Below the pieces are notes generated by a model. That model saw only the letters and a list, made by a program, of their open reading frames with translations. It was not told where the DNA came from and searched no databases. A stretch of DNA of 64,000 bases from a virus, in the IMG/VR virus record IMGVR_UViG_3300027969_000073, positions 1 to 64,000 of that record; one strand, 5' to 3'. The first letter of the stretch is position 1. Each line of letters begins with the position of its first letter. The translations under genes and the position numbers were made by a program. This document shows positions 30,099 through 59,207 of this stretch, piece by piece.

Positions 30099-33000
30099 TT
30101 ATTCTTTACAATTTTTAGCTTGCCAAATAGCAGTTTGCTGTTCATTTGGTGATAAAGATAAGAAATTTTCTTTATTCATCTTTCCTCCAGCTGCTGTGTA
30201 TTCATCGTAATCTTTATTTCCAATTGTTTCAAATATTCCTAGTCTTTGAGATAAAGAAGTATCTACCATACTTGATAAAGCATTTGGTTTATTAACAACT
30301 GATTTAGTATTTAAATTTTCTTCAGCTAATTTATTTAAACCAATCATAAACTTAATATCATATCCTGCATCTTTGATTGATAATTCTGCAATTTTTTGTG
30401 GTATTTTATTGTATGAAACTGATCCATCTTTACTAATTGAAATACTGAAATCAGAATATTTAAAATCAATAGAATTAGCATTATAAGATATATTTGGTAT
30501 ACCTAATTTATCTAAAACATATTGTTTGTATTCTTCTCTTTTTTGTTCAGATACATTTGACGGATTATAATTATAATCAGCATTTACTTTTCCTGTACTA
30601 GTAACTCCTTTAATATCTGCTAAATTTTGAGTAACAGGTGCTACAGTAGTAGGAATTGTCTTAGTTTCATCAGGTTCTAATGCAGCTGCTGTTATTTGGT
30701 CCATGAAAGAATCTTGCATACTTTGAATAGGAGATTTAGGAGTTTCTGTTTTGTTTTCTTTTAAACTAGAAACATTAAGGTCTCTATTGTAGTCAAACTC
30801 AATTGCAAAATTACTCTCTCCTAAACTTGTTAATGGTACATAAGTAGCAGTAGTTAAATTAGTTCTTCCATCAAAATCAGCAAAATCATTTTTAACATCG
30901 AAGTCTGTTTTTACTAATTGGTAAATAGTAAATTGCTTACCTTTTTTAGCTACTTTAATAAATTCTACTGGTTGAGAGTTATTAGTTGTTGGAGTAAGTT
31001 GACGATTTTTAGACAAATTAACAATTAAGTTTCCTTTTGCAGTTTTAACTATTCCATTTTTAGATTCTTTAGCAGCTAAAGTTAAAACAGAATTTTCTTG
31101 TTCAGGAGTTAAGCCTTTCTCTAAAGGATTTGTTGTTACATCTACTTTTACAGTATGAGTGAAAGTTTCTTTTCCACCATGATTCTGCATAAATTGTCTC
31201 TTAAATCTTTTCTTTATTTCCTCGTTTTTATTAATACCTGCAGCTAACGCAGTTTCTAAGAATTTATTAAAGGTTCTTCCATTAACATCAACAATGTTAT
31301 TAGCTTCTTGATAAGCATCTGACCAGAATAAAACTGGTACAAGATTAGAAAAAGTAAAAGGCCCAAAGCCGTAACCAGCTGAGAAGTAAGTGTACTTAAC
31401 TAATTTAAGTGCCATTTCTCTTACTTTAGGGTCAGAATCTTGTAACATGCGTTCCCAAGATTGTCTAGCATATTGACGGTCTAGTGTATCTTTTCCTGTT
31501 GCGTAGTATTGAATTCTTTTAATAGGAGAATAATCATTACTATCTACTACATATAAAGAATCAAGTAACTTTCTATAAGGAGAGTTAATAGGAGTTTCTT
31601 TTTGCCATTTAACTAATTCATCAGGAAGTTTAGTCAAAATCTCATTACTTTGAGAATGCTTAAAGAATGGGAAAGCAGAAGCTAAGAAATTGATGTAGTT
31701 GATATCAATTAAACTTGCTTCTTTTTCTGTCAAAGAATACATTTCTCCTTTTTGGTCAGAGAATTCATTCTTTAATTCTCCTAAAGCAGAATATTTTATA
31801 CGACCTGTAGTACTGTCTACTTTTCCAATTGCAGAATAGATTTTATCGAAAATGTTAATAGGTTCAATAAGACCGTATTTAGTAAATGCAGGCATCATTA
31901 TTTGTTCAGAAAAAGGACTTTCTATAAATGCTTCTTCTAATCCTTGAATACTATTAGTATCTTTCTCTATCTTACGAAGTAAACGATCTTGTTTATTAAT
32001 AGTAGTATAGTTATTTGCACTTGCAGGTCCTACTCCTTTAGTATCACTTTTAGAAGCTTGAATACCCATAGCTAACTCTGAAGCAATGCTGTGGTATGTT
32101 TCAAATGCTTGTAGAACATTAAGTTGATTTTGATAATATTCTAATGTACCTGAAGGTAATAAATCTCTTTCTAAAATTTCATTACTAAAATCTGTACTTG
32201 TGTCTGCTTCTACTTCAACTCCTGCTTCTTTAATTTTATTTGCTAACAAAGTTTTCCATCTACTCATAGTAGTTCTAAAGTTTTTGTCATCTGACAAAGA
32301 ACCTTTATCGTTAAAGTAGTTTCGAGTTAACTCTAAAATTACAGGCTGATTTAAGAATGCAAATACAGTTCTTTCTTCTACTCCTAAACGTTGTAACATA
32401 CTTTGCACATTGGCAGTATATGTATTCATGTTTAAGAATGATGCTACTGGGTCATTGGCATTATCCACAGCTGCTGCTACGTTACTTGCTAAAGCTTTTG
32501 AAATACGAGTTCCCGTAGGACTTTTAATTTGATTTAACTCTGTGTAAGGAATTCCATTAAAATAAATAGGAACTTTTAGCTTCATATTAGTATACTGAGC
32601 TTTAGCATGGTGTACGTTATGATTAGCATAAATACCAATTAACTCTTTACCCGTCATACCTCTACGGAATAACTCTGATTGTGTAGAAGGATAGTTGATA
32701 TTAAAGTTATCTCCTTCATCTAAAACACTTGCAGCATCTAATAGTTCACTACCTGTTAAAGTAGCTTCTTTCTTTTTACCTGCTTGAATCAAACGAATTC
32801 TTGCAGCATTTTCTTTTAGAACATCAAAGTTTCCTGGATTTAAAATAGCACTAGCTGTATTTTTGTTTGCCAAAATTCCTTGAATAATTTCAATTTTCTT
32901 ATTGTCTCTTGCAGCAGTACTATTATATTGAACAGCATTGAACTTTTCTGACATTAATTTTTTAGCAATAACGTCTATAACATCTTGGTGTTTTTTCTGA

Positions 33001-36000
33001 ATCTCTTGAGAAGTCTCATTGAATGGTAAGTCATTAGAAATTGCTTTATACAAAGTATCAATTTCATCTTGAATAGTTTGTACAAAAGCACTATCTGGGC
33101 CATACATTAATATAGCTTGCTTCTTACTATCTTTTAATATTTTAACATCATCAAATAATTCTGATTTTTCTTCTTTAGTAAGTTTTTCAGGCAGACTGTC
33201 CATTAGTTCTCTACGAACATTCAGCATTTTTTCAAGGTTATTTCCTTCAAAATTAGTTTTTACAAATCGAGAAAAATCTCCAAAGTTTTGGAAGATGCTT
33301 TTTGCTAATTCCTTAGCTTCTGACTCACTATCTAAAGTGCTTTGGAACTTAGTATACTTTGGCTTTCCTTTAGTATCTACAGTGAAAGAACGCGTCATCA
33401 GATACGTTTTATCAATATCGAAATCGAGACCTGCAAGAGTAGTAATTTCTCTAGGTAAGATTAGCATACCTCCCATTTCAGGGGGAGTAAACCCTACAAT
33501 TTTAATATTAAAAGTAGAATACTTATCCTCATTAGGAATACGTAAACCAATTATTTCTAATAGCTCAGGAGCTGTTTCTCTAATAGTGTCAATATCTACT
33601 TCTCCATCAGCATTTAATGGGAAATATTTTCTTGAAGTCCAAGGCATCATTGCTTCAAAAGTAATGGTCCCTGTTTTTTCATCTACAATAAAATCTAAAT
33701 TATCTGCTATTCCATAAGAACTGGCATTGACTACTGCTCCACCAGATATTTTCTGTTTAGTAACTCTGTTTTTAAAGAAAGAGTTCATCACTGCTTCCAT
33801 TTTATAGGAAATTAATGGATGATAAAGAGGTAAAGTAGTACGATAATCTTTGTCTCCATTCTTTAAGGTAACTTCAATTGGAGCTAAAGCATCTAAATAC
33901 TCTTGGCCCATATTTCTAGAAATCACTTCTTTTCTAAGTTCTTTAGCTAATTTCTGATAATCAATATTACCATCTGGCTTTAAGAACATTTCTTTAACAT
34001 CCTCAAAAGAAGTACGTAAATCTTCCACAACTAGTTCTTGATATAGTCTTACTACATCTTTACCTTTCATAGTTTGATTATTGATAGTATAATCTCCTTC
34101 AAGATCCATATCAGCAATAATCAAGTTACGTAATTGAGTACTAAAGTTTCCTTCTGAATCTATAAAGTGCTCAGGGGTTTCTTGTTGTAGTCGATAATCT
34201 GCTGCATTTAATACTACAATTTCAGGATTTGAACTTAATTTATAAGAACCATCTTTTTGTTTTGTATAAGTAGCATAGTCTTCGTTACCGTTTATAAACG
34301 ACTTACTACCACCTACTTTAATTGCTGATTCAAAAATAGCACTGTCAACAGTTGTTGTTGTACCATCTTCATTTTTAATACCATTCATTAAAGTATCGTA
34401 TACAGCTTCTAGTTTTGCAAATTTAGCAGCTAATGCTCTTGTAAGTACTACTTCAGAGTTTTTAATTTGCGCAGGTACTACTGTACCATTAGAAATTCTA
34501 TGGGCAAAATAGTAAGGTTTTTCAGGTCTAAATAAATCAAACTCAGTGATATCTAAAGGAATACCTTTTAATTCTTTATTATAAGCAATTTGATGTGCAT
34601 CTGTCCAACGATTTAATCCTTCAAGCTGTGCTTTTCTACGATGAATACTAATCATAGTAGCACCGTCAGTAGTATTGTTTCCTTTATATTCACTACTCTT
34701 AACATCAGTTAATCCTGCTGTCCAAAGAGTAATTAATTTTTTCTTTTCTTCTGCAGTTAAATCTGAACTTTTAATAATTTCTACAATAGCTTTGCTAGTA
34801 GCAGCTTTTGTAGGAAGTATTTCATCTTTTAAAATGATACTATTAAATGTATCAGGAATTCCTTCAGTGTTAGTAAACATACCAGGACTCATTACTTGCT
34901 TGTAACGTTTCTGGAAGTTGTCTGTATTTTTATAGAATGCTAAATCACCTGCAAAAACTGTAGTTAATTGCGTGTTCATGTAGTAAGCATTGTATAAATA
35001 GTCTGTAAAAAATGCAGCTTGGTCTTTTATCTTGTTGCTGAGTAATTTATCTGCAAAAGTAATAGCGCCTGTAACAGGGTTAATTGATTTAATTACACCT
35101 GTTTTAAGATAAGATTGGTATTGCAACTGCAAGTAATCTTTCTCCATAAATTCTTTGATAGCTTCTTTAACTTTTTTCTCATCAAATCCTTTTTTGAAAT
35201 CTAATTTATTTAAAAAAGACATTGATTGAAACTTAACTCCTCTTTTTACATAATTAGGAACTAATCTTAAAGGACTATTTGCAGGCAAGTTCTTTACCTT
35301 TACTATTCGAGAATATTCTGCTTTAGCATTTTGTAATAATCTATTTACAATTTCTTCTTTATCAAATCTTCTTGCAGTGATAAAAGGAATTGTAGGGGAA
35401 TCTGCAGGAATAGGGAGTTTGAAACGACTGATTCCTCTAGCACTTTTTCCTGAATTATAGAACATACCTAACTCAGTAACCATTAACTCGATATCAGACA
35501 TTTCAGTATAGTTTACTGAACGATTCTTTCCTTTTCGTACTAGACCATCTAAGACTACTGCTTCTAAAAGACTTCCTAAATCTTCTTCAGGATTTGCTAA
35601 GTCTTTCAAGAAAGGAAGATTTTTCATATACTCATCTCCCTTAATTTCCTCCATGTATTGAGCAAACTTTTTAGGGTCCTTGAATTTATTTAACTGCTTA
35701 TTTAAGAAGTTAGATAAAATTAAGTTATAAGTAGTTTTACCTTTAATACTACGGAAAACTGCTACTACTTCTTGCTCTAAAGCAGGTTGTAGAATAGTAG
35801 CTAATCTTTCGATATTGTTTTTATTTTTCTTAACTTTTGGATCTACTACTAATTGTTCAGGTCTTGCATACAAAAATGGATTATTTCCTAATTCTAATTC
35901 ATGTGCAATGTCTGAAACTACATTGATTAAGTTGATAATATTTCCCCAAGAAGCTTTTCTAGTTTTACCTTTAGTAGGTTTCCAAACGTTAACCAAATCT

Positions 36001-39000
36001 TCTGGTGTCAAGTTGATATAAAGTTCTGCAAAATCTTTTGACATCATTTGAAATAGAAGGTCTACAGCTTTTTCAAATGTTTCATTTTCAACACGATTAT
36101 TAACATCAGCAGCTTTTTCTTTTAAACTTTGTATTTTATCAAAAATTGCTCCTGCTTTTTCTGTATTTACATTTTCAAAATTTCTAGCACCATTTTTATC
36201 TTTGCCAAATAATGCATTTTCTTGTACTAAAAAATTAGCAACAATAGTATCTTTAATAATTGCATCGTATGTTTGACGGTTAGAATTTACTACACTATAG
36301 TCTCCGTCTTTTTCATAAACAAAAGAAAATGTAGCAAAATTCTTTTGACCAATTGCTAACCATAAATCTGTTTTTAATCCAGGGTCTAAAGCAATTTGGT
36401 CTGCAATATGAGGCATAAATGTTTTATCATTTATGATTCCATCAATTTTAGCCATCATATCTGCAACAGAATAGCTGTCTGAGATACGAGATAATAAGTA
36501 TCCAAAAATATAACTAGGGCTTTCTTTCTCTTGAACGTTAAACTCATTCAATAAAGGTTTCCCATTTGCATTATATTTAGGGATTGTAGCAAAGAAACTT
36601 TTTAGTTTTTGACTCATAGAAATTTTAGGGTCCATTTCTATGTAACCTTTCATCCATGAATTCTCTACAGTGTTTTCTTCTTGAGCATCCATGAAATCTT
36701 CTTCATCAGGTTTAAAGTCTACTGCACTTTCTTCTACTGTGTTAAGAGACATTGTAATTCCTCGAAGAGTCAAAGACTGATTAAATCTTTCTAATAAATC
36801 TGTAGGACGTTTGAATTGTAAGAATTTACTTCCTTGAATATCTACTTCTTCAACGTCTTTTAAGTTATTGGTTAAAACCCCAACAAGTTTTTTCAAAGGC
36901 AAAGCAGCACTTGTGTTTGCTGCAATGTTAGCTTTAGTATCTGCGTAAATCTGAGAAACTAACATAGTGTAGAATTTATCTACTCCTAAGTCTTTAATAA
37001 TTTGTACATCACCTTTGAATTGATTTTCTTCTTTGCTACGAATAACATTGAAGAGTTCATCCATTACTGTTTGCATGTATACAAAAGCTTGACGTTCTTC
37101 TTCTGCAGAATTATATTTTTTATCAGTATTAACGTCCTTAGACATCATTCGAGCACTAGTAGGAAGTACTGTATTTCTAAATTGAATAGAATTTTTATAT
37201 GCTCCTAAATCAATGTTTTCAAAAATTTGTTCAATATCAAATTGACGATTACGACTAAAGAAGATTTGAATCATTCTATTCATCCCTTTAAAAGTTTTGA
37301 AAATCTCTTTAGCTTTTGATTTTTCAGCTGGGTCTACTTGCTCTTTAGCTTGCATGTATTCCATAAACTTATCTGCAAGTACTTCTTCTATTTCAATATA
37401 AGTTGGATATTCATAAGTGGTATTGCCCTCAGAGTCTACAATCTTTTTCAATGGTAACTCATCAGGATATTTTTCCATTGCTTCGTTAAGAATACGAATT
37501 CTTGAACGTAATGGCAATGCTAAATTAAATACAATGTGAAAAGCTTCGTGAAATTCTACACCAGCATCTGCATTCTTACTTAAAAATAAAGCAGCTTGAG
37601 TAAATAGACCGTGAAGTTCTTTTCCATTTTTACGTGCTTCTAAAAGCATTTCATAGGTTTCTTTAGGCAAATAGTTTTCTAATGCTTCTAAAGAATGGAA
37701 AATGCGTACTGTGCCCTTACGGCCACTTCCTCTTTTGTATGCTTTTCCTAAAGTTCTTTTTAACCATTCTAAAGCTTCTTGTTGATTCCATTTTGTACCA
37801 TCAACTTTAGGCTTTAACATAGTACGTACCTTGTCTGATTCAGGGCCGTTTTGTCTTTCTGTGCCTGTAGAATCAATATCAAAACCTAAATCAAAATCAT
37901 CAAAATTATCTACAGAAGTAGGCTCTTCTGGAGCAATTTCTGTACTGCTTGCAATAATACTATCTAAACTTTGTTGCTCTGCCACAGGAGGAGCATCAGG
38001 TCTATTAGCTGCACTTTCTGAAGCTGCTACATCTACAGCACTTTTTAAGAAATTACTTGTAGCAGTTTTGATAATTGACTTTTTCTCTTCTGTTGGAGCT
38101 TCTGTAGGAGTTTCTTCTTTTTTTACAGACTGAGGAGTTTGTAATTTTTTTATATCTTCTCTAGCAAAGAAAGCTTTAGTAGCTTCTTGTGATTCTTTAT
38201 TGTTTATAGAAAGTACCTGAACAGTTGGGTTTCCTCCTTTTCTAGGAGTTATAGCTAGTTTTTGAATAGACTTAATCGTTACTACTCCATTTTCTACAGA
38301 TGCAATTACTCTTGCAACTAAATTAGAATTTGGAATATTAATATCTCGAACTACTTCTTTATTAGCTATATCAACAGCTGCTGTAACATCATTGATTGGC
38401 GCACTAAAGATAGGGCTCTCATTTTTCTTATCTTTTGTGTTATTAACAGGCATTGTTCTAGACAATGCAAGATTAGAAAATTCGACAGAAGCTTTAGAAG
38501 TAGGCATTTTTGCCTCCATAATTAGCTCTACATTAGCTCTGTCTTCAGGGGACATTTGGTATGCCTCAATTACAAAAGAGCTTGAGCTAAAAAAGTTTCC
38601 ATCTTCTGAATATAAATCTGTAGTAACAGCTCCAATTTGTGCTAAAGTTTGATTATAAGTTCCACTGTTAATCTTATCCCAATCACAACGATATAGTAAT
38701 TCTCCAATATAGTTTTGTGCCTCTTCAGCAGTATCAAATAATTGACTTACTACTTTACCTAAATTATTATCTTGTTTACTTACTAAGATTTTATTTGTAG
38801 TAGTTCTTTCTACAGTAGTGTGGTAAAGCATTTTTTCAATTTTTCTACGTGCATTAAGAATGTCTTGGCTTTCTACAGCTTTTAACAAATTGGCTAAAGC
38901 TAATTTAACATCATTAAATTCTGTAGTTTCTTTAACTTTACTAGAACGTATTCGCATAGGATATAAACCATATGCAGAAGGAACCATCATGTATGGAATA

Positions 39001-39458
39001 CCTTCTTCTAAATTTTCTTTAATGTTTGCAAAAATTTCAGATTTCTCTAAAGCTTTTAATAACGCTTTGTTCTCTACATTTTCTTTTCCTATTTTGATTA
39101 CCCCATTTACTTTGATAATCATTTTAAAAGCAATGTCTTGAGACTTAGAATCTCTATTTTTTCTTTCTTTATTGGCTTTGTCTAGTACTTCAATAGGATT
39201 ATTATTGACATAATTTAAATCTCCAGGAGTACGCTCGTTATTAATTACACGTTGAATCTTTCTAAGGATTCGTAATTTAATTGGCTGTTTTTTAATTTGT
39301 TCTTTTGCAAATTCTTTAGCTTTTCTACTGTCAACTTCTAATTCAGGAATAGTCACTTTGCCTTCCTGAATTAAAGAATCTAATAGTCCATTATTAAGAA
39401 TTTGTTTAAATTCTTCTTCTGAACGCCATTTGTTATCGTACCAATACTGACAAGCCAT
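30099..39458 (-). CDS. Giant virion RNA polymerase with internal zincin domain (3119 aa)
   Basis: The catalytic RNA polymerase loop is D2012-F-D-I-D2016 in LAGLDFDIDKTYLM, identical to the DFDID loop of crAss-like virion RNA polymerases such as phi14:2 gp66, which are related to two-barrel RNA polymerases. Upstream, GVEFHEAFHIVF gives an HExxH site (H637, E638, H641) with EEVLAD (E691/E692) as a likely third ligand, a zinc peptidase domain known to be fused to these proteins. Residues 450-560 are a low-complexity Thr/Pro/Glu linker. The enzyme is expected to be injected and to transcribe early genes. The neighbours are the 1950-residue companion and the ferritin-like gene. Confidence 0.92.
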   Translation of the reverse strand: MACQYWYDNKWRSEEEFKQILNNGLLDSLIQEGKVTIPELEVDSRKAKEFAKEQIKKQPIKLRILRKIQRVINNERTPGDLNYVNNNPIEVLDKANKERKNRDSKSQDIAFKMIIKVNGVIKIGKENVENKALLKALEKSEIFANIKENLEEGIPYMMVPSAYGLYPMRIRSSKVKETTEFNDVKLALANLLKAVESQDILNARRKIEKMLYHTTVERTTTNKILVSKQDNNLGKVVSQLFDTAEEAQNYIGELLYRCDWDKINSGTYNQTLAQIGAVTTDLYSEDGNFFSSSSFVIEAYQMSPEDRANVELIMEAKMPTSKASVEFSNLALSRTMPVNNTKDKKNESPIFSAPINDVTAAVDIANKEVVRDINIPNSNLVARVIASVENGVVTIKSIQKLAITPRKGGNPTVQVLSINNKESQEATKAFFAREDIKKLQTPQSVKKEETPTEAPTEEKKSIIKTATSNFLKSAVDVAASESAANRPDAPPVAEQQSLDSIIASSTEIAPEEPTSVDNFDDFDLGFDIDSTGTERQNGPESDKVRTMLKPKVDGTKWNQQEALEWLKRTLGKAYKRGSGRKGTVRIFHSLEALENYLPKETYEMLLEARKNGKELHGLFTQAALFLSKNADAGVEFHEAFHIVFNLALPLRSRIRILNEAMEKYPDELPLKKIVDSEGNTTYEYPTYIEIEEVLADKFMEYMQAKEQVDPAEKSKAKEIFKTFKGMNRMIQIFFSRNRQFDIEQIFENIDLGAYKNSIQFRNTVLPTSARMMSKDVNTDKKYNSAEEERQAFVYMQTVMDELFNVIRSKEENQFKGDVQIIKDLGVDKFYTMLVSQIYADTKANIAANTSAALPLKKLVGVLTNNLKDVEEVDIQGSKFLQFKRPTDLLERFNQSLTLRGITMSLNTVEESAVDFKPDEEDFMDAQEENTVENSWMKGYIEMDPKISMSQKLKSFFATIPKYNANGKPLLNEFNVQEKESPSYIFGYLLSRISDSYSVADMMAKIDGIINDKTFMPHIADQIALDPGLKTDLWLAIGQKNFATFSFVYEKDGDYSVVNSNRQTYDAIIKDTIVANFLVQENALFGKDKNGARNFENVNTEKAGAIFDKIQSLKEKAADVNNRVENETFEKAVDLLFQMMSKDFAELYINLTPEDLVNVWKPTKGKTRKASWGNIINLINVVSDIAHELELGNNPFLYARPEQLVVDPKVKKNKNNIERLATILQPALEQEVVAVFRSIKGKTTYNLILSNFLNKQLNKFKDPKKFAQYMEEIKGDEYMKNLPFLKDLANPEEDLGSLLEAVVLDGLVRKGKNRSVNYTEMSDIELMVTELGMFYNSGKSARGISRFKLPIPADSPTIPFITARRFDKEEIVNRLLQNAKAEYSRIVKVKNLPANSPLRLVPNYVKRGVKFQSMSFLNKLDFKKGFDEKKVKEAIKEFMEKDYLQLQYQSYLKTGVIKSINPVTGAITFADKLLSNKIKDQAAFFTDYLYNAYYMNTQLTTVFAGDLAFYKNTDNFQKRYKQVMSPGMFTNTEGIPDTFNSIILKDEILPTKAATSKAIVEIIKSSDLTAEEKKKLITLWTAGLTDVKSSEYKGNNTTDGATMISIHRRKAQLEGLNRWTDAHQIAYNKELKGIPLDITEFDLFRPEKPYYFAHRISNGTVVPAQIKNSEVVLTRALAAKFAKLEAVYDTLMNGIKNEDGTTTTVDSAIFESAIKVGGSKSFINGNEDYATYTKQKDGSYKLSSNPEIVVLNAADYRLQQETPEHFIDSEGNFSTQLRNLIIADMDLEGDYTINNQTMKGKDVVRLYQELVVEDLRTSFEDVKEMFLKPDGNIDYQKLAKELRKEVISRNMGQEYLDALAPIEVTLKNGDKDYRTTLPLYHPLISYKMEAVMNSFFKNRVTKQKISGGAVVNASSYGIADNLDFIVDEKTGTITFEAMMPWTSRKYFPLNADGEVDIDTIRETAPELLEIIGLRIPNEDKYSTFNIKIVGFTPPEMGGMLILPREITTLAGLDFDIDKTYLMTRSFTVDTKGKPKYTKFQSTLDSESEAKELAKSIFQNFGDFSRFVKTNFEGNNLEKMLNVRRELMDSLPEKLTKEEKSELFDDVKILKDSKKQAILMYGPDSAFVQTIQDEIDTLYKAISNDLPFNETSQEIQKKHQDVIDVIAKKLMSEKFNAVQYNSTAARDNKKIEIIQGILANKNTASAILNPGNFDVLKENAARIRLIQAGKKKEATLTGSELLDAASVLDEGDNFNINYPSTQSELFRRGMTGKELIGIYANHNVHHAKAQYTNMKLKVPIYFNGIPYTELNQIKSPTGTRISKALASNVAAAVDNANDPVASFLNMNTYTANVQSMLQRLGVEERTVFAFLNQPVILELTRNYFNDKGSLSDDKNFRTTMSRWKTLLANKIKEAGVEVEADTSTDFSNEILERDLLPSGTLEYYQNQLNVLQAFETYHSIASELAMGIQASKSDTKGVGPASANNYTTINKQDRLLRKIEKDTNSIQGLEEAFIESPFSEQIMMPAFTKYGLIEPINIFDKIYSAIGKVDSTTGRIKYSALGELKNEFSDQKGEMYSLTEKEASLIDINYINFLASAFPFFKHSQSNEILTKLPDELVKWQKETPINSPYRKLLDSLYVVDSNDYSPIKRIQYYATGKDTLDRQYARQSWERMLQDSDPKVREMALKLVKYTYFSAGYGFGPFTFSNLVPVLFWSDAYQEANNIVDVNGRTFNKFLETALAAGINKNEEIKKRFKRQFMQNHGGKETFTHTVKVDVTTNPLEKGLTPEQENSVLTLAAKESKNGIVKTAKGNLIVNLSKNRQLTPTTNNSQPVEFIKVAKKGKQFTIYQLVKTDFDVKNDFADFDGRTNLTTATYVPLTSLGESNFAIEFDYNRDLNVSSLKENKTETPKSPIQSMQDSFMDQITAAALEPDETKTIPTTVAPVTQNLADIKGVTSTGKVNADYNYNPSNVSEQKREEYKQYVLDKLGIPNISYNANSIDFKYSDFSISISKDGSVSYNKIPQKIAELSIKDAGYDIKFMIGLNKLAEENLNTKSVVNKPNALSSMVDTSLSQRLGIFETIGNKDYDEYTAAGGKMNKENFLSLSPNEQQTAIWQAKNCKE

Positions 39459-39469
39459 ATTTTTTATTT

Positions 39470-39952
39470 TTACCCTTCACTTCTTTCTAACATGTCTGCA
39501 TCAAATAGCAACATGTTATCTGTAAGTTTAAGACGGTTAATTAAATCACCATATTCCCCTACTGCTGATACTTGTATCATAATAAAGTCCTGTAGCAAAA
39601 TTAACACTTTTCTTGATATATTCATACTAGCAGTCTTCTCATATTCTGCTAACAAGTCTGCTTCCATTTGGTAAGCCAATTCTAAAGCGTCTCCAATAGA
39701 AGCTACACTAGTTGTTACTGGATCTAAAGACTCTGTAGAAAGCTCGCAATTCATGTCATTCATAAACTGTTCTAACTTATTATAATGAGTACGCTCGTCC
39801 AAAGATTCTGACAAAAAGAATTTCTCTGCACCAAAGTATCCTAATGACTTCATGCGATTAGTAAGATGTTGGTAAACATGAGAAGCTGTTAATTCTAATT
39901 TACCAAACTTATTCAATTCTTTTTCTTCTATTTCTGTAAGTAATTTTTCCAT
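39470..39952 (-). CDS. Ferritin-like diiron protein (160 aa)
   Basis: The four-helix ferritin layout is clear: KLELTASHVYQHLTNRM with E20; GAEKFFLSESLDERTHYNKLEQF with E53 and H56; a long loop; ALELAYQMEADLLAEY with E97; and LLQDFIMIQVSAVGEYGDL with Q127 and E133. Spacings E20-E53 (33), E53-H56 (3) and E53-E97 (44) equal those of bacterial ferritin FtnA, so a ferroxidase centre is likely. Ferritins oxidise and store iron, and Dps relatives protect DNA. The gene lies between a cargo protein gene and the RNA polymerase gene, 10-11 bases from each, so it is expressed late and might enter the virion. No signal peptide. Confidence 0.85.
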   Translation of the reverse strand: MEKLLTEIEEKELNKFGKLELTASHVYQHLTNRMKSLGYFGAEKFFLSESLDERTHYNKLEQFMNDMNCELSTESLDPVTTSVASIGDALELAYQMEADLLAEYEKTASMNISRKVLILLQDFIMIQVSAVGEYGDLINRLKLTDNMLLFDADMLERSEG

Positions 39953-39963
39953 TGTGATTTATT

Positions 39964-44088: not shown

Positions 44089-46965
44089 TTATTGGCCCAT
44101 TACACTTTCTAGACTAAACTGAGCAGGTACAAAGTATTGTTCAGAACCTAAACCTGACTGATAAACTACTGCATCCATTTCATCTCCTGTGCCAAATATT
44201 AAATTGTTTTTCATTATTTGTACTGGCAAACTTCCTGACATATCTAATGGTTTAGAAACAACTGGTTGTCTTACATATTGACCATTAGCATCTACAATTA
44301 TTTTATCTACTGTCATCAATACTTCTCCTTTACTTACTTTGTAATTAATAGTAAATCCTGATTGAGTTCCATCTGCATTTTGTTGCCATACTGCAGGTGG
44401 CTCAGTAATTTCTGTAGCTAAATGATTATTTTCAATAGCATCATTTAATCGAGCTCCCATTTCTAAATAACGTTCTCTACGTTCAGGATTAGAAATAAGG
44501 GCAATGTTGGCGTAAGATTCTAAGTTTTTATTAAATGTTACTCCTGCTTCTGGGTCACTTGCTTGTGCTTCTAAAGCAGCTTTACCAAATTTAATGTAAT
44601 TATCTTTAGCTCTTTCTGCTGGGTTAATTGTAGTACCTTCTACTACTGTATATAGGTTTACAGGGTTAGCATCGTACCAAGCTTTTTTCTCAGCAGCACT
44701 AGCACTAATTTCAGTATCAGTTAAATCTTCTGCTTTTTTACCTAGTCTATGAGCACTAATCATTTTAGCAGCATAAGCATCAGCACTTTGAGAACCTGGT
44801 TGGAATTCTTTTTTAATATTGTATCTCAGAATAGGATTACCATTTTGATCATTTCCTGCATAATGAGGAGTTTCTTCGTAAGCATTTAAATCAAATGTTT
44901 CTCTTAAATTAGGATTAGTAATTACACTAGTTTTACCTGTTCTATCATCAAAGTTTACTCGTTCAATTGAAGAGCCTCCTGTAGTATTACTCTTAGCATA
45001 GTTGATGATATCTGTAACTGCATTGCCTGTATATTTATCAAAACGTGTGTCCATATATATTTCAGGAGAAGCTACTGCAAATTGTGTTCTAAGGTTAACT
45101 AAATAATTATCCATTACAGATTGCCCAAATTTAGCTATTGCATCAGGCTGAACATTTTCTAATTTTTTCCAATCAAGACCTGTACCTGCAACATTTAATC
45201 CTTTATTTACAATATCTGTAGTTAAGAAATCTTTATTATGCTCTTGAATAATTTGAATCATTTTTAATGGATCTTTTTGAGCTTTTTTTTCCCAAACTTC
45301 TTTCATAGTTTGGTCTGCAGTTAATTCAATAATATTTTCAAAAGTTTTAATATCAGAGCTTTTAGCAACACTAAGTTCGAATTTATCTCCTAACATTGTT
45401 TGTAACTCGTCTATAGCAGCTTCTTTTTCTGCTCCTGAAGCACTTGCTACTTTTTTCTTTTGCAATGCTATTTTAGAATCATAGTCAGCAAGTTTTTGGT
45501 CAAACGCTGAAATTCTAAGGTCAAGAATTTTATATTGAGAAAAAGTTTTTTCTGTCTCGTTAATTCTTTCTACAATTGGCTGGCCTATAGATAAAGTTGT
45601 ATTTAAATCTTCTACTAACCAAGCTCCTTGACGAGCTCTTGCCATATCTGTTAACTCATCTAAAAACTCTGCTTCCATTCCCGTAGATTTTACACCATGT
45701 AAACGTGAATACAAATCTTGACTTACTCCAGCTTCTTTAATAGCTGCTCTGTTACCTGTAGCATCTGAAGAACTTGTAATTCCTTTAGTAGAAGATTTAA
45801 CTATATCTGAGTTAATTCCCCCAATAGCATTAAACTCTTCTAAAGTTTTATTGTTCTTTTCTCTTCTTGCAGTTGCTGCTGGGTCAGTTAAATTATCTGT
45901 ACTGTATTTAATATTACGATAGTCTACAATATCTGCTGCAGCATCGCCAATAACATCAAATTTATTTTGACCAAAGTCTACATACAATTTTTCTGAAAAA
46001 TCATCTAAACGTCCTTGTGCAGCATACTCTTGGTATCCTTCAAGAATATTTGCTTGTAAAGATTTAGCTTCTTTTAATTTTGCTTCTAAAATTTCTCTTT
46101 CACTTTTATCTAAAGTAGGAATTTTTAATTTTTCATTTATTTGAGCAATTTGGTCATCTACTTGACCAAATGCTCCTCTAATAACATTTTCTTTAAATTG
46201 TTCGCCTGTTGCTGCATTAGAGTTAGCATTATAGTACCATTCTCTACGATCATAATCCTCTTGCCAATTTTTGTATTTATCAGAAGTTTTTAAAAAATTT
46301 GTTATTTCTGTAGCAATTTGCTCTCGATTTTTTTCAGTAACTTCAACATTTAATCTTTGTAATGTATCAGCATTAAGTTGACCATATTGACCTAAACTAT
46401 TAATACGTTGTTCAGGAGTCATTCCTGCTAATTGTAAAGATTCTTTTCGAATGTTTTCTTCTTCATTAGCTAAAGGAGGCTGAACATTAATTTGATTATA
46501 AGCCTCTTCTTTAGGGTCATAGTTAGTACCTTTAAATTGGTGATTAGTCTTAAATAACCAAGTGTCATAATCTCTTTGAGTAATTCCATTCGGTTTACCA
46601 ATTTTTTCTTTCATCTCTTTTTTAGCTTCTTGTAAAGCTGTATAATTTCCTTGAATAGAAACTAATTCAGGGTCTTTTGTATACAGTTTTTGAAGCCCTG
46701 CTAATTGCTTAGCAGCTTGAGTATAATTTTTAGAGGTTGCTAAGTTTTGAGCAATCTCGTCTCTTTTTTCTTTAAGAGTTTGCATTAACTCTTTACTTCT
46801 AGGATCGTCTTGATTTAATTTAGAAATTTCAAAGTCAGCTGCATCTAGAGCTGCTTTGGTAGTTTCTAATTTTTCATACATCTGAGATAAAGGTTCTGCA
46901 AACGCTTCGTATCCTAAAGGTTTGTACTCAGTTTTTACTGGAGTAGAAAATGGTGTAATTGCCAT
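44089..46965 (-). CDS. Coiled-coil virion structural/cargo protein (958 aa)
   Basis: The N-terminus (PFSTPVKTEYKPLGYEAF) is followed by an extended heptad-rich region (about 30-120) and further helices throughout; there is no membrane segment or enzyme motif. Such helical proteins line the core or portal region of podoviruses. It lies between the 1550-residue peptidoglycan-hydrolase protein and the 1364-residue hydrophobic protein, suggesting that the three form one ejected assembly. Inferred from position and composition. Confidence 0.6.
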   Translation of the reverse strand: MAITPFSTPVKTEYKPLGYEAFAEPLSQMYEKLETTKAALDAADFEISKLNQDDPRSKELMQTLKEKRDEIAQNLATSKNYTQAAKQLAGLQKLYTKDPELVSIQGNYTALQEAKKEMKEKIGKPNGITQRDYDTWLFKTNHQFKGTNYDPKEEAYNQINVQPPLANEEENIRKESLQLAGMTPEQRINSLGQYGQLNADTLQRLNVEVTEKNREQIATEITNFLKTSDKYKNWQEDYDRREWYYNANSNAATGEQFKENVIRGAFGQVDDQIAQINEKLKIPTLDKSEREILEAKLKEAKSLQANILEGYQEYAAQGRLDDFSEKLYVDFGQNKFDVIGDAAADIVDYRNIKYSTDNLTDPAATARREKNNKTLEEFNAIGGINSDIVKSSTKGITSSSDATGNRAAIKEAGVSQDLYSRLHGVKSTGMEAEFLDELTDMARARQGAWLVEDLNTTLSIGQPIVERINETEKTFSQYKILDLRISAFDQKLADYDSKIALQKKKVASASGAEKEAAIDELQTMLGDKFELSVAKSSDIKTFENIIELTADQTMKEVWEKKAQKDPLKMIQIIQEHNKDFLTTDIVNKGLNVAGTGLDWKKLENVQPDAIAKFGQSVMDNYLVNLRTQFAVASPEIYMDTRFDKYTGNAVTDIINYAKSNTTGGSSIERVNFDDRTGKTSVITNPNLRETFDLNAYEETPHYAGNDQNGNPILRYNIKKEFQPGSQSADAYAAKMISAHRLGKKAEDLTDTEISASAAEKKAWYDANPVNLYTVVEGTTINPAERAKDNYIKFGKAALEAQASDPEAGVTFNKNLESYANIALISNPERRERYLEMGARLNDAIENNHLATEITEPPAVWQQNADGTQSGFTINYKVSKGEVLMTVDKIIVDANGQYVRQPVVSKPLDMSGSLPVQIMKNNLIFGTGDEMDAVVYQSGLGSEQYFVPAQFSLESVMGQ

Positions 46966-51681: not shown

Positions 51682-54123
51682 TTAATCTTGTTTTGTTTGT
51701 TGCCAAGGATTAGCTAATAAAGCTGTTCCTCCTACTGCACCTGTTATAGGAACTAGCGCAGGAAGTGTTCTTGCTTTTTCTGCAAGAAATTTAGCAGGCC
51801 ATCTTTTTAATAATTCTTGAGTATCTTCTGATGTTTTTGTTTTTCCTATTTGACTTTCTAAATTATTAATATTATTGAAATATTGATTTTTTATTTTTTC
51901 CAAATCTGCTTCAGAACCTCCTGCATTTTTTATAGCACGATATTCTGCTTTCATATTATTAAATAATAAATCACCTTCTTTTTTTAATTTAGCTGCATCT
52001 AATTGGTTAATATGTTCTTCTGTAATTGGAGTAGTAAAATAATCATTAATACCTTGAGTTTTTAAATCCTCTTTAAGTTGACGTAATCTTACTTCAAATT
52101 CTGTAGGTTTTGCATGATAATCTAATCCTGTTACATAAGGATCTAAAGTGTTTTCTTCTAGATGAGATCTAGTAAGCCAATTAGGAAGAAGTTCATCAGA
52201 ATTAGTTCTTTGATGGCTTAATTCATGCCAAGTTGCTACTGGATTACTTATTTGAGCAGTTCCATTATCTTCTTGATACATGTATTCGTTAGTATTAGCA
52301 TTTGCTACTTTTTGCTTAAATGTAGGAGTATGTCCTGGCATATAAGCAGCATTTGAACTATGCTTACTAGTGTAAACTCCTGAAGCTCCTTCAGGAACTT
52401 GACTAGGATTATATTCTAATTCATTTTTAAGATTTTCTAGTGTAACCTTTTTGTATTGTTCAATATCTACATCAGGATATTCTTCTTTCATTATTCTTTT
52501 AAACTCAGGACTATCATAATATGACTTCATATTTTCAACATACTCTTCTTGCAAAGATTTGTTAGTCTTAGTATTAAAAGGAATTATTTTTCCACTTTCA
52601 GATTCTTTATAAATAATATTTGGATTAGTCTCTAAATCATGTCCGTAAGTACCAAATACTTTTTCTTCCTGACTTATTTTTTTAAGGTCCTTAAGTTTAT
52701 CTGTTGCTTTTAATACTCCTTTTGCATCTTGTGCTAGAGATTTTACTCCTGTTTTTGTTGCACCTATTGAAGGTATAAATCTTAATCCTTCTAATCCTGC
52801 ATTCATATAATTACCTGCTTGTAAATTTCTATATACTTTATCTCCTGCATCTAGTAAATTAAGATTAGAATTTAATGCATTTCCTACAAGATTTCTTCCT
52901 TGAACTACTCCTGGATCTATGCCTGCCATACGCATTTCATTAATATTACGAGGCATGTTTTCTACTCCTCCTCCTGATACAGCATACTCAAAAGCAGTAA
53001 AAGGATTAGTAGCTATTTCCCAAGCTCTACTTGGTCTATCATCAGGGTTAAATTCTTTTATAGTTCCTTGATTAGGATTTCCATAAACAACGTTTTCCCC
53101 TAAGTATTTATATTCTTCTATTTTTTTTGGATTTAAAAGAATTTCGTTTTTTTGTTCTTTAGTAAGGGTAGCAGAATTTTTTATTGCATTAATAGTTTCT
53201 GCTCTAACAGCTTGGTTTTCTGCAGCACCTTGATTTAATTTATTTTGCATACTTTTTTGCATGCCTACATCAAAACTATTTTTAGGTACAGTACTCTCGG
53301 CTACTTGTGGCTTGTTATCTAATAACGGGGCATAAGTACGTTGGTACTTATTAGTAGTTGTTGTCATTGGAGTAGCTTGTGCATTTAATAACGCAGTACG
53401 CTTTCCTGTTGGGTCTTTTACAGGAATAAAACCTTTAGTATGTTCAGTTTGAATATACCATTGATTGTTTACTTTTTGATAAGTAGCTCCTGGTCTACCT
53501 TTGTATGTATACAATTGGCCTCCATCAGCATATTCTCTATTAATCTTTTTTTCTTGTTTTAGCATTTGCTCAGTAGGTTCTTTTCCTGAACCTGCGTTAG
53601 CTCTGATATTATCCCACAATCCTCTTGGAGAGTAGCTACCGTCTGCACGTTTTAGCATACCTCCTTGAGCATATACATTAGGATTATCAGCATGCCATTT
53701 TTTAGTTGCAGCAACTCCTTCTGCAATAGTATTAGCGTTTGCTTTATTTGTTAAATTAATAGTGTCCCATTGGCCTTTATCTTCAGCAGGATGATTAACC
53801 ATTATATTTCCGTCTGCACTTCTGTAAATTCTATGGTACTCACCATTAGCAGTTAAAAACTTTCCTCCATTTTTGTAATAGTTTCCTAATGCTGATGCAT
53901 AAATGCTGTCTCTAATTTTACCTTGACTAGTTCTATCTACTAATGGACCTCCATCTAAAAAAGGTAAACTAGTAGTGTCTCTAAAGATTTGAGTTCCTTT
54001 ATCAAAATGCATTGGCAATATTGGGGCCATGTATCCTCCGCCTTTATAGTAAGCATCTTGGGCATTCTCACTAGAGAATATGCTGTGACCATTTAATGTT
54101 TGTCTAGGTTGCGCTTTTTTCAT
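51682..54123 (-). CDS. Virion protein with HExxH metalloprotease site (813 aa)
   Basis: The C-terminal half contains ATWHELSHQR, an HExxH zinc site (H633, E634, H637), and downstream KPTEFEVRL with E675/E677 as a possible third ligand. The N-terminal 220 residues carry repeated double-glycine motifs (YKGGGYM, LDGGPLV, YKNGGKF, YAQGGML, YADGGQL) and a DSIYASALGNYYKNGG segment (72-87) that matches one in the 1550-residue protein. A hydrophobic helix (about 783-806) ends the protein. Start and stop overlap the upstream gene in TAATG. A virion protease that processes cargo or attacks host proteins is a reasonable inference. Confidence 0.7.
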   Translation of the reverse strand: MKKAQPRQTLNGHSIFSSENAQDAYYKGGGYMAPILPMHFDKGTQIFRDTTSLPFLDGGPLVDRTSQGKIRDSIYASALGNYYKNGGKFLTANGEYHRIYRSADGNIMVNHPAEDKGQWDTINLTNKANANTIAEGVAATKKWHADNPNVYAQGGMLKRADGSYSPRGLWDNIRANAGSGKEPTEQMLKQEKKINREYADGGQLYTYKGRPGATYQKVNNQWYIQTEHTKGFIPVKDPTGKRTALLNAQATPMTTTTNKYQRTYAPLLDNKPQVAESTVPKNSFDVGMQKSMQNKLNQGAAENQAVRAETINAIKNSATLTKEQKNEILLNPKKIEEYKYLGENVVYGNPNQGTIKEFNPDDRPSRAWEIATNPFTAFEYAVSGGGVENMPRNINEMRMAGIDPGVVQGRNLVGNALNSNLNLLDAGDKVYRNLQAGNYMNAGLEGLRFIPSIGATKTGVKSLAQDAKGVLKATDKLKDLKKISQEEKVFGTYGHDLETNPNIIYKESESGKIIPFNTKTNKSLQEEYVENMKSYYDSPEFKRIMKEEYPDVDIEQYKKVTLENLKNELEYNPSQVPEGASGVYTSKHSSNAAYMPGHTPTFKQKVANANTNEYMYQEDNGTAQISNPVATWHELSHQRTNSDELLPNWLTRSHLEENTLDPYVTGLDYHAKPTEFEVRLRQLKEDLKTQGINDYFTTPITEEHINQLDAAKLKKEGDLLFNNMKAEYRAIKNAGGSEADLEKIKNQYFNNINNLESQIGKTKTSEDTQELLKRWPAKFLAEKARTLPALVPITGAVGGTALLANPWQQTKQD

Positions 54124-57100
54124 TATAGTACTTGTGGGTCGTAATACGAAATTAAACGATTCATTATAAACTCTTTATTGATATTATTATCAAAATACAA
54201 AGTTACTATAAAATGAGTACTTCTAAATCTTCCTTGTTGAGATACAGAATTTATATCTCTAGGAAGTTTAACTCTCCATTTATCAAATCTTCTTTTAATT
54301 CTCCCTGAAGAAAAAGGTATAATACCTGAATCTTGTACTTGTGTTTGGATTCTAAATCCTGTGATAGTTTTAGTTCTATCTACTTGTTTTAAATCATCAC
54401 GCACAATAGAATTAAACTCTAATGTACGTAAAATTTTATTAATATCAGCATTAGGATTAATTACTAATGTAATAGACGCTTCTTCTACATTACCATAAAA
54501 TTCTCCCCAATTACCAATATTATGAGTATATACAATGTTTCCTTTTTTAGGATTTGCTGATAAAAGTATATCACCATTTTCTATCCACATTTTAGGAGTA
54601 GCGCTATACTTTGAAGAAAATTGTTGCATTAATTCATCGTATACTATTGAAGTAGCATTTAATCTAGAAATTATATTTACTAAATCTGCATATCTATCTA
54701 ACTGTTCTTTTAAATCATCTGGAATACTAGAAGCAATAAATTCAATAGTAACTACATAATATAATCCTCCGCTTGTAATAATATCTCCTGGATAATAAGT
54801 GTCACCTCCTATTACTACTAACACTCTAGGAGTAGTAGATAAGAAAGTGAAGATTACCTCGTCATTAATTCTGTCTTTTCCAATAGTAACTCCGTAACCT
54901 TTTATTGGGTTATCTCCTTGATTTTCTTTTCTATAAAACACTCCATCAGGTAGTGCTTGTAAAAAACTGTGTATTCCTTTTAATTCAGAAAGAGGATTAT
55001 TTCCTTGTCCGTTAAATACAAAAATCTTTCTGTGAATACCATCAAATAAATATATACCAGAGTCTGTAGTTTTTATACCCCATTGGTGAATAGCTCCATG
55101 TTCTTTTGAAATATATTGATGCTTACCAAATCCTTGACCTGTACCTAATTGCGTAGGAACTCCATCATTAGTAGAAGTAATAGCTGCACGATTGATAGCA
55201 TAAGCTCCAAATCCTCTATCTTGAATAAAATAAACTGTATCTTTCCAATTGACGATTTTATTAATTGGACCATAGTCATCTATATCATAATAATTATTTA
55301 CACCAAATTTTGTCCATGCATCAATTTTATCTCCATTGATTTTTACATTTGATAAATATGCTCGGATGTCATTAGCAGCTGAGGTATTATCAAAGTTTAA
55401 TGGTTTAGTAAAAAATACTACATTACTATTTTCTTGAGAATACACTGTATTATAAGCGTACATGTACAAGTTTTCTCCGTACTGTGTATAAGTATTATTA
55501 GTTTCTTGTCTAAGTACTGTATTTTGAGTATCGTTTAAAGCTTCTGTATATTTAACTCCAGTTTTTAAAGTAGCTCCTTGTGCTAAATCAATATTTATAG
55601 AAGACTCTACTGGGAAAGCTCCTGTTGTAGAATAAGAAGTTCCAAAAGCATCAGGAGTACCTGTACCAGCATTTTTATAAAATATCGTATTTAACTCAAG
55701 AGTAGTTCCTTGAAAAGTAAACATGTTTATAAAAATGTCTCCTCCAAATACTTTAGGATTAGTTTCTGTTACAGGAATAATTGGAGAAGCAGAAATAAAA
55801 GTATTAGCCGCTAATACATCATCTGTGTAACCTCCGTAAACTTCTTCTTTAGGAAGAACAATATCTACAATAGGAGTATATAAATAATTAGCTCCTGAAT
55901 ATGGAGTTGATGTAGAGGCTGCTACATCTGGTCCAAAATTATCATAAGCTGAAGAAGCTGGAATTGGCTGTAAAGGGTCAATTGGATCAAATAATAATTT
56001 TCCTATTCTACCTATAATTCCTGTAGCTCCTTTATTAATTAAACGAGCAGGGTCAGCTGGACCAGGTCCGTTTTGTGGGTCATTTATTCCTGAGCCTCCT
56101 ACATTATAAGTTGCAGAGTAATTTCGTAGATAAGTTGCTGTACCTCCTACATCAAATGGCCCAATTATATTATCAGTGTATTCTGAAGTAGAATACATTC
56201 CTACTTTTGATTTACCATTTGCCCAGATTTTAATATTTTCAGGAGATAAACTATCAAGATTATAAGTAGTTCTCATAGTCAATCTGTAATCTTCTGCAAA
56301 TGCGCATAAATCTTCAGGACCTGATAAATCTACTGAAGGTATATAAGTTCCTCCAGGCTGATAAAATGCTCCTGTAACAAGTACACATGCATTATTAGAG
56401 GAGGTAATTAATTCAGGTATATTATCAAAATTGTAAGAAATATCTGCACTATGGTAAGCAATAAAGTCTCCTGGAATACTTCCATAAGTATCGACTGCTC
56501 CATGTAAATGCTCAAAATGAGTTCCTATTACATTTTCAGGGTAAATATGATAAATATCACTACCTCCTGATATTACTGTTCCTCCTACAGGTTGAGTTAA
56601 ATCAAAATCTAATCCACTACCAGTAGGTCCAATTTCAATGTCTGCAAAAGCTTTTATAATACCTGAAGTAATACGTCTTTTATCTACATCAGTTCTTTCT
56701 AATCTTACTATTTGATAACTTTCAACTTCTGATAAAAAGTCTGGGCAAGTAGAAAAGTCTAAAGTAAATTCTACTCCTAAAGCATACCCATAAGTAGTAG
56801 TGCCGCTAGAAGTAGTTAATGGAAAATAATTAGTACCTGAATTATTGGTTGTTCCATCTTGATCGGAAATATCTGGAAATTTAATATCACATAAGTGCTC
56901 TACAAAAGAACTTTCTCCTTTTTTATTGTAAAACACTATTCCAAAACGATAAGTTTCTCCACGTTTATATCCTCGAAGTAATCCTGATATAAAAGGTGAA
57001 GCATTATTTGGAAAAGTAATATTTTGATAAACACCTGCTCCATCATCTAAATCATGAGGAGGAGGAGTAGGACCATAGTCAGGAACATTAGCCTGGTTTA

Positions 57101-58382: not shown

Positions 58383-59207
58383 TTATGATGTTGCTGGATT
58401 GCTACCTTGCGCAGTAGCAGATAATACATTAATTGTTGATACCAAACCAATACCTGCTTTAGGTCTAAACTTACGCATTTCAGGTAATTGCATGTTAGCA
58501 AAGAAATTGCTGTGGTCTTGTAAACTTGGAATAGTACGTACCCAAGAATTTTTTACAGTTTCTGCTTCATCTACACCGTTCCATTGTTTAGAATGATTAA
58601 CTGCTTGAGCAAAATACCAATCTCTATCTCTTTCAATAATTTGATATTTGTCTCCTGTTAATTCATTACGTAGCCAAAGTTTAAATGCTACTTTATGTCC
58701 AACATAAAAAGAAGCTGCTGCTAACCATTGTTGTTCTGCAGGGATTGTAGGATAACCACACTCGTCTGTAGGAATAGCTTCATACGATATTGCTAAGAAT
58801 CCTTTATCAAATGAAGGAAAAACAAATCCTTGGCCTACTGTATAAGTTTCTCTAGATTCAGTTGTATAATCACGGTTGTCTTTGTGATATCTTGTATGGA
58901 AGTTATCTGTTGCCCAACGCATTGGATACATTCTTCCTTGACCGCATTCTGCTTCTTCTAAAGTATCAATACCTTCAAGATGAGCTGTTTGTTTGATTTT
59001 ATGCAAATCAAATGGCAAATCTCCTCTACCGTCACATACTTGTATGTAGCCAATTTTATCTTCCATAACTACACCTGAGTTAGTGTGAGCCATGAATTCT
59101 GCTAACCATTCTACTCCTTCTTCTTCATTAATTTCATAATTAAATCCGAAGTCACGAATAACTTTGTCAATGATAGCTTTATATGAAACGGTATTTCCTG
59201 AATGCAT
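58383..59207 (-). CDS. Tail connector / ring structural protein (274 aa)
   Basis: A conserved crAss-like structural protein by context and pattern: an N-terminal helix with WLAEFMAHTNSG, a DGRGDLPFDLHKI loop, then SFDKGFLAISYEAIPTDECGYPTIPAEQQWLAAASFYVGHKVAFKLW and a FFANMQLPEMRKFR segment. The YP-IPAE helix followed by a long helix is seen in neck and connector proteins of podoviruses. It overlaps the upstream gene in a TAATG. I am sure it belongs to the tail-connector cluster, less sure of its exact ring. Confidence 0.7.
   Translation of the reverse strand: MHSGNTVSYKAIIDKVIRDFGFNYEINEEEGVEWLAEFMAHTNSGVVMEDKIGYIQVCDGRGDLPFDLHKIKQTAHLEGIDTLEEAECGQGRMYPMRWATDNFHTRYHKDNRDYTTESRETYTVGQGFVFPSFDKGFLAISYEAIPTDECGYPTIPAEQQWLAAASFYVGHKVAFKLWLRNELTGDKYQIIERDRDWYFAQAVNHSKQWNGVDEAETVKNSWVRTIPSLQDHSNFFANMQLPEMRKFRPKAGIGLVSTINVLSATAQGSNPATS

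Follow-up and report, generated by a model that had tools for sequence, protein, structure and literature searches.

A ferritin gene in the virion RNA polymerase block of a family of uncultured crAss-like phages

A 160-aa open reading frame in a 64,000-nucleotide stretch of viral DNA (positions 1 to 64,000 of IMG/VR record IMGVR_UViG_3300027969_000073; hereafter, the window) was found to encode a true Ftn-type ferritin, located among homologues of virion cargo and RNA polymerase (RNAP) genes. The ferritin recurs across a family of uncultured phages, rather than being an oddity of one genome, and what appears to be new is this phage ferritin clade together with its place in the virion RNAP block. 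The original prediction, made from the DNA letters, was confirmed in what it observed and partly supported in its interpretation. The features discussed are listed in Table 1.

Table 1. Positions in the window of the ferritin gene, its ligand codons, and neighbouring genes.
Feature	Coordinates	Strand	Basis or remark
Ferritin gene P0001, 160 aa	39470..39952	(-)	PF00210 and fold
Ligand E20 codon	39893..39895	(-)	conserved; FtnA E17
Bridging ligand E53 codon	39794..39796	(-)	conserved; FtnA E50
Ligand H56 codon	39785..39787	(-)	conserved; FtnA H53
Ligand E97 codon	39662..39664	(-)	conserved; FtnA E94
Q127 codon	39572..39574	(-)	conserved; FtnA Q127
PhicrAss001 gp49 homologue (RNA polymerase-associated virion cargo), 1950 aa	24243..30095	(-)	blastp 2.2e-26
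Virion RNA polymerase, 3119 aa, DFDID at residue 2012, PhicrAss001 gp50 homologue	30099..39458	(-)	blastp 2.4e-95
PhicrAss001 gp47 homologue (RNA polymerase-associated virion cargo), 1364 aa	39964..44058	(-)	blastp 1.3e-15
958-aa protein, function not assigned, in cargo-gene place	44089..46965	(-)	position only
Cargo protein 1 (gp45) homologue with glucosaminidase domain, 1550 aa	46986..51638	(-)	PF25725 1.7e-25, PF01832 9.4e-16, gp45 4.9e-16
Crassvirus muzzle protein	54123..58382	(-)	PF25731 3.8e-135
Crassvirus tail ring protein 1	58383..59207	(-)	PF24228 6.4e-45

The 160-aa protein matched the Pfam ferritin family PF00210 at 44.7 bits (1.7e-11), above the curated cut-off of 24.5. A phmmer search of PDB chains returned 178 sequences at E ≤ 1, the best at 1.2e-6, and each of the best 60 of these 178 was a ferritin or a fusion containing one; a profile built from 32 phage relatives matched the PDB entry 7y74 at 1.8e-18 and the bacterial non-heme ferritin 5c6f at 4.5e-17. 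The AlphaFold2 model, computed from an alignment of 14 sequences, had a mean pLDDT of 89.8 and a pTM of 0.84, and it bore out the predicted 160-residue four-helix layout, with helices at residues 7-37, 42-66, 86-108, and 114-143 and, in addition, a short fifth helix of low confidence at 152-159. The best Foldseek matches of the model in the PDB were the V. cholerae and E. coli ferritins, and in VIA-align it superposed on a T. maritima ferritin variant with a Z of 21.9 (rmsd 1.1, 142 aligned) and on the V. cholerae ferritin with a Z of 21.5 (rmsd 1.5, 155 aligned), differences within 1 Z being read as ties. A four-helix bundle of ferritin topology, the absence of which had been named beforehand as decisive against the prediction, is thus present in the model by its confidence, by Foldseek, and by Z values of 21 to 22. 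Ferroxidase chemistry and a cage would be expected from family membership. The phage ferritin is under purifying selection, the dN/dS values being 0.028 to 0.330 and mostly below 0.2 (19 gene pairs compared, dS being finite in 18; the pairs are not independent).

The iron site was evaluated in an alignment of 99 phage rows (near-copies included) with E. coli FtnA and two PDB ferritins. Tiling gave no ORF for L084, L096, and L128, the first two of which were restored by direct translation. The residues E20, E53, H56, E97, and Q127, which had been predicted to form a diiron site, were found at these positions with the predicted spacings of 33, 3, and 44 residues (E20-E53, E53-H56, and E53-E97), and they correspond to the FtnA ligands both in the alignment and, as far as the model can be trusted, in whole-chain superposition. 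All five are kept in every row that spans the five positions (96 of 96), which is the E, E, H, E, Q pattern of an Ftn-type two-iron site within the subunit, as judged by alignment. The apparently complete site of the original prediction was borne out for these five ligands but does not extend to the extra site of FtnA, the residues of which we take to be E49, E126, E129, and E130; the window ferritin has D52 where FtnA has E49, and I126, S129, and A130 at the other positions. Among the 99 phage rows, position 130 is S in 48, A in 46, E in 2, and T in 1, and E129 is retained in 11; the sea cucumber ferritin row, like the window ferritin, carries A at 130. Because FtnA E126, E129, and E130 are replaced, the site resembles a two-iron centre of the H type, as in animal ferritins, more closely than it does the full bacterial FtnA type with its extra site. 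At Y27 (Y24 in FtnA), 87 of the 99 rows have Y and 11 have W, and the phage family is characterized by residues E49, N65, Y104, E133, Y134, and D136 (92 to 96 of 99 rows).

Other members of the superfamily were considered. Bacterioferritin was rejected: where this family has a heme methionine adjoining the bridging glutamate, presumably its hallmark, the window protein has R54, and most rows have L, R, or K, with M in 2 of 99. Proteins of the Dps type are 12-mers with an iron site between subunits. There was no Dps among the PDB, Foldseek, and VIA matches listed, and since these structure matches are of the Ftn type and the within-subunit Ftn ligands are present, a Dps-type protein seems less likely than an Ftn-type one.

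The neighbours of the ferritin gene in the window were paired by local blastp against PhicrAss001 (MH675552). It was found that the ferritin gene lies between the gp47 homologue upstream and the gp50 homologue downstream, which is followed by the gp49 homologue, and that DFDxD motifs are present in both the window RNAP and gp50; the 958-aa protein gave no local blastp match to PhicrAss001 gp46. The predicted location of the gene within a virion cargo/RNA polymerase cluster was therefore verified, by homology of its neighbours to gp47, gp50, gp49, and gp45 and by the CARG1 domain, and the muzzle, ring 1, cargo 1, and virion RNAP genes place the window among Crassvirales-like phages. In PhicrAss001, gp45, gp46, gp47, gp49, and gp50 were detected in virions by mass spectrometry, according to passages of PMC10172136. 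A gap of 11 bp is present on each side of the ferritin gene, no terminator-like site was found in positions 38900-40500 around it, and junction RNA folds and promoters near it were not above those of shuffled sequences. From the common strand, the 11-bp gaps, and the lack of a terminator-like site, the ferritin would be expected to be expressed late, with the cargo. The 91-kb record has 78 internal ORFs shorter than 600 aa, and of these the ferritin alone has genes of at least 600 aa on both sides.

Several other features of the window were observed. The cargo protein 1 homologue (46986-51638) combines CARG1 with a PF01832 glucosaminidase domain, a cell-wall enzyme within a probably ejected protein. 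A-rich leaders lacking a clear Shine-Dalgarno sequence, as in Bacteroidota, precede the ferritin and RNAP starts (39953-39980 and 39459-39480) and give a weak hint of the host. A LAGLIDADG-like domain protein, probably a homing endonuclease, is encoded at 21786-22586, a protein of 812 aa that matches an ATPase domain of the HSP90/gyrase type (PF13589, 8.1e-6) at 14063-16501 in the replication region, and a likely lysin, with a chitinase class I (GH19) match barely above the cut-off, at 60924-61535.

The spread of the ferritin was evaluated in IMG/VR, where the single window protein found 13 relatives, a first alignment 45 loci, and a second alignment 130 relatives, of which the best 80 were kept, so that the tallies cover the best-scoring part. 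A muzzle gene is present in 12 of the 13 records of the nearest relatives. Among 50,697 GenBank phage records, no match at E ≤ 0.01 was obtained with the window ferritin, nor with the ferritins of loci L041 and L186; the ferritins of L028, L188, and L083 matched only unannotated faecal scaffolds (one, four, and three records, respectively), and E. coli FtnA matched six records, namely four unannotated faecal scaffolds and two Staphylococcus phage records. A pattern-based scan of cellular genome contigs, which would overlook any cellular ferritin without the phage motifs, yielded a relative in 2 of 64 pattern stretches, both on contigs of metagenome-assembled genomes (MAGs; L047 and L048). These two contigs, binned with Rhodoferax and Zoogloea MAGs, carry a ferritin relative with giant neighbours of phage type, a weak hint of the host for the L100/L114 type, and the upstream gene in both was, among those compared, most like that of L100/L114-type phage contigs. 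Matches were found in 18 of 200 genomes from the phylum of the Rhodoferax MAG, in which the phage-like contig scored 140.9 bits and the next best 73.6; on plasmids, ferritin matches were found in two Priestia records at 27% identity.

A tree was built from 49 phage rows, thinned from 93 at <85% identity, and 27 cellular rows, with L045 to L048 and E. coli Dps left out. The cellular rows were mostly Pseudomonadota, and Bacteroidota, the expected host phylum of Crassvirales (so also in the abstract of PMC10136315), were not among them. It was found that 46 of the phage rows form one clade, separate from the cellular ferritins sampled, with support of 98/84.

Genes of at least 600 aa on the same strand flank the ferritin on both sides in 62 of 91 loci of relatives, on one side in 18, and on neither in 9 (L021, L023, L027, L031, L078, L103, L104, L107, and L108), and 2 loci are truncated; this count includes near-copies and contigs that end nearby, and L047 and L048 were left out. 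The median gap between the ferritin and its same-strand neighbours is 1 base (177 gaps).

We also began from the RNAP, for which 536 relatives were found and the best 80 kept, relatedness being judged by search score rather than by an RNAP tree. A ferritin was detected by profile in 11 of these 80 loci, and 69 were without one, although in a number of these the DNA stops short of the region upstream of the RNAP; therefore, crAss-like phages in general do not need the ferritin. The ten best-scoring loci (L158 to L166 and L178) have a ferritin directly before the RNAP in eight cases (partial in L163), and the contigs of the other two, L159 and L164, begin inside the RNAP gene and have no upstream DNA to judge. 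Thus, the ferritin is regular in this uncultured clade, being present in 8 of the 8 best-scoring loci in which it could be seen. The original view that ferritin is not a standard crAss-like module accordingly stands for PhicrAss001, in which gp48 is instead of cold-shock type, and does not stand for the clade of the window. The next-scoring loci with upstream DNA (L167 to L171, L173, L174, and L179) have gp47- and gp50-type genes without a ferritin, with the whole gp47-gp50-gp49 block in L167, L173, and L179 and, in four loci for which it was determined (L167, L171, L174, and L179), a gap of about 30 bp between these two genes; in L173, an 84-aa RNAP-like piece lies between them.

The remaining three ferritins of the RNAP scan, in L176, L186, and L188, are divergent (Pfam 66.5 to 81.2 bits) and lie in or beside the RNAP block. 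The order in L176 is gp47-like gene, ferritin, 288-aa gene, and RNAP; in L186, it is a 1348-aa gene without a match, ferritin, and RNAP; and in L188, it is RNAP, ferritin, and gp49-like gene. The ferritin may therefore stand directly before the RNAP, two genes before it, or after it. A search for relatives of the L188 ferritin found only itself, and for that of L186 eight loci including itself: L242, which is L186's own contig, with the ferritin directly before the RNAP; L243 to L248, where the gene before the ferritin matches gp47 and the gene after it, where long enough, has no RNAP match at 1e-4; and L249, without a matching neighbour. In the tree, the L176 and L188 ferritins group together next to cellular rows and that of L186 stands apart, where long branches meet, and a topology uniting all 49 phage rows was not rejected (AU p 0.258). 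These placements suggest, but do not prove, that ferritins were acquired independently more than once into the RNAP block. The repeated occurrence of ferritins in or beside this block, in a search that began from RNAP loci and sees only ferritins near that gene, gives the strongest indication that the two are functionally linked.

Two layouts of the RNAP after the ferritin were observed, with the motif at about residue 2040 (window type) or about 270 (L002, L010, and L013), and the first 44 to 60 RNAP residues adjoining the ferritin are alike in both; segments of the polymerase have apparently been rearranged about the junction with the ferritin gene. The second layout was absent from the best 80 of the 536 RNAP loci.

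Ferritins of other phage types also have neighbours of interest. The downstream gene of the L083 type has an LPD38 domain (2.2e-23) and giant-protein PHROG matches, one of them DarB-like (5.4e-18), and the downstream gene of L041 has a DarB-like match (2.3e-18). Polyvalent proteins with such marks are argued to enter with the phage DNA in passages of PMC5512222, in the text of which the word ferritin is absent. The upstream gene of the L028 type encodes a portal protein (1.9e-64), and the L021 ferritin is flanked by genes for terminase and tail sheath. Of 23 tested records of these other ferritin types, 14 matched the crassvirus muzzle at E ≤ 0.001, with 6 above the cut-off, as did all five RNAP-scan records of the same test.

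Compared with the bacterial non-heme FtnA proteins of E. coli, V. cholerae, and T. maritima, the window ferritin has a similar fold, with the best Foldseek matches, and the five ligand positions in common, whereas the identity to FtnA structures is about 17-19%, the extra-site glutamates are replaced, and the C-terminal end is shorter. It scored 18.9 bits against the NCBIfam FtnA equivalog NF007638, below the cut-off of 178, whereas the E. coli FtnA control scored 379.1. Animal H-type ferritins (7y74, human, and mitochondrial) were the best PDB sequence matches among those listed, with A130 as in 7y74 and Z about 21; the identity is about 19-24%, and the phage protein differs in its family residues E49, N65, Y104, and Y134 and in its phage origin. 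The PhicrAss001 gp47-gp50 block has neighbours homologous to those in the window but lacks the ferritin, its gp48, between gp47 and gp49, lying on the other strand. Gut phages (Gratiaviridae and others) encode Dps and Mn-catalase, which belong to the ferritin-like superfamily and are tied to iron and oxidants, but these are different families, and passages of PMC8008677 describe no virion-cargo setting for them. Likewise, a giant-virus ferritin has been read as iron control, but it belongs to viruses of eukaryotes, and no link to virion RNAP cargo is described in passages of PMC7136201. Ferritin-named viral models in BFVD (for example, of Siphoviridae sp. ctrzs15 and an uncultured marine phage) have the ferritin fold (Foldseek 1.1e-5 and 2.0e-5) at 18-19% identity, and given these proteins and the related reports, phage ferritin as such is not new. 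Among the papers listed by searches of the open-licence PMC literature, none had a title or abstract opening that describes a ferritin in crAss-like phages. Weaker BFVD matches (A0A6J7XDU5, A0A6J7WPK9, A0A6J7WIS1, and A0A6J5N5R9; E 0.014 to 0.17) were to models named prohead protease (333-763 aa) and one 679-aa model named Ferritin/DPS, and may possibly represent ferritin-like domains fused to head-assembly proteins.

We give about an even chance to the proposal that the window protein is a working Ftn ferritin resembling the H type, which is made late with the virion cargo, is probably packed with the RNAP cargo, and reassembles in the host to lower iron and peroxide chemistry. In its iron site, E20, E53, and H56 would hold one iron and E53 and E97, with Q127 near, the other, the FtnA extra site being missing, and Fe(II) would be oxidized with O2 or peroxide and stored as Fe(III). 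An assembled ferritin cage measures about 120 Å. The constrictions of the tail barrel are less than 50 Å, and the cargo is believed to travel through it in partly unfolded form (passages of PMC10172136), so that subunits, and not a whole loaded cage, would be ejected. Chains packed with the RNAP cargo would leave through this narrow tail singly or partly unfolded and reassemble in the host cell, where, in the early stage of infection, they would reduce free iron and peroxide chemistry near the DNA and polymerase that have just entered.

Packaging of the ferritin in virions has a probability that we put at about one half, on the basis of gene order and of homology between the neighbours, rather than the ferritin itself, and known virion proteins. 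It is supported by the position of the gene among homologues of gp47, gp50, and gp49, which are virion proteins in PhicrAss001 (PMC10172136, in part), and by the flanks of the other types, with portal or with the LPD38 and DarB-like marks of proteins argued to be injected (PMC5512222, in part). A fusion of ferritin to a giant protein would have argued for packaging, and counting against it, no fusion to a giant or cargo protein was present in the 99 aligned phage rows, the longest of which is 181 aa, and 9 of 91 loci lack a neighbour of at least 600 aa. The joint claim, that subunits are packed and injected with the virion RNAP as an iron sink and also that ferritins were taken into the block more than once, falls a little short of an even chance.

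The main rival, which is quite possible although we lean against it, is that a working ferritin stays unpackaged and acts late as a sink for released or unused iron, protecting replication and assembly until lysis, and that its gene is found in the cargo block because the late operon tolerates insertions. The evidence of fold, ligands, and selection fits this explanation equally well, as does the varying place of the ferritin relative to the RNAP. Structural and cargo genes are expressed late together, as described in passages of PMC10136315, and co-expression alone could therefore explain where the ferritin lies; the authors who described Dps and Mn-catalase in gut phages, moreover, took them to help the infected host tolerate oxidants (passages of PMC8008677). 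However, late operons offer other places, such as among capsid and tail genes, yet the ferritins of the window type and of L176, L186, and L188 are all in or beside the RNAP block, as seen in a search seeded with the RNAP.

Two further explanations are both improbable. The ferritin fold might serve the particle structurally or in its assembly, as a bundle or cage aiding cargo packing, with iron chemistry minor; the fixed place among virion genes, the portal gene adjoining the ferritin in L028-type loci, and the weak BFVD matches to proteins named prohead protease are in keeping with this, but a purely structural part would not need the five iron ligands that are kept in all 96 covering rows. 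It is slightly more improbable still that the gene is a passenger from a host, kept by chance and with no role tied to the cargo: although the next-best-scoring RNAP relatives lack it, dN/dS values mostly below 0.2, a single old clade of 46 phage rows, and its presence in 8 of the 10 best-scoring RNAP loci, that is, wherever visible, speak against such an origin.

If the ferritin is virion cargo, as we propose, the phage would deliver iron control directly, and virion-borne transcription would be linked with metal or oxidant stress within minutes of the start of infection. Should it prove unpackaged, a phage ferritin clade with a regular place by the virion RNAP is still a clear, testable case of iron handling by phages, and it makes crAss-like virions worth examining for iron.
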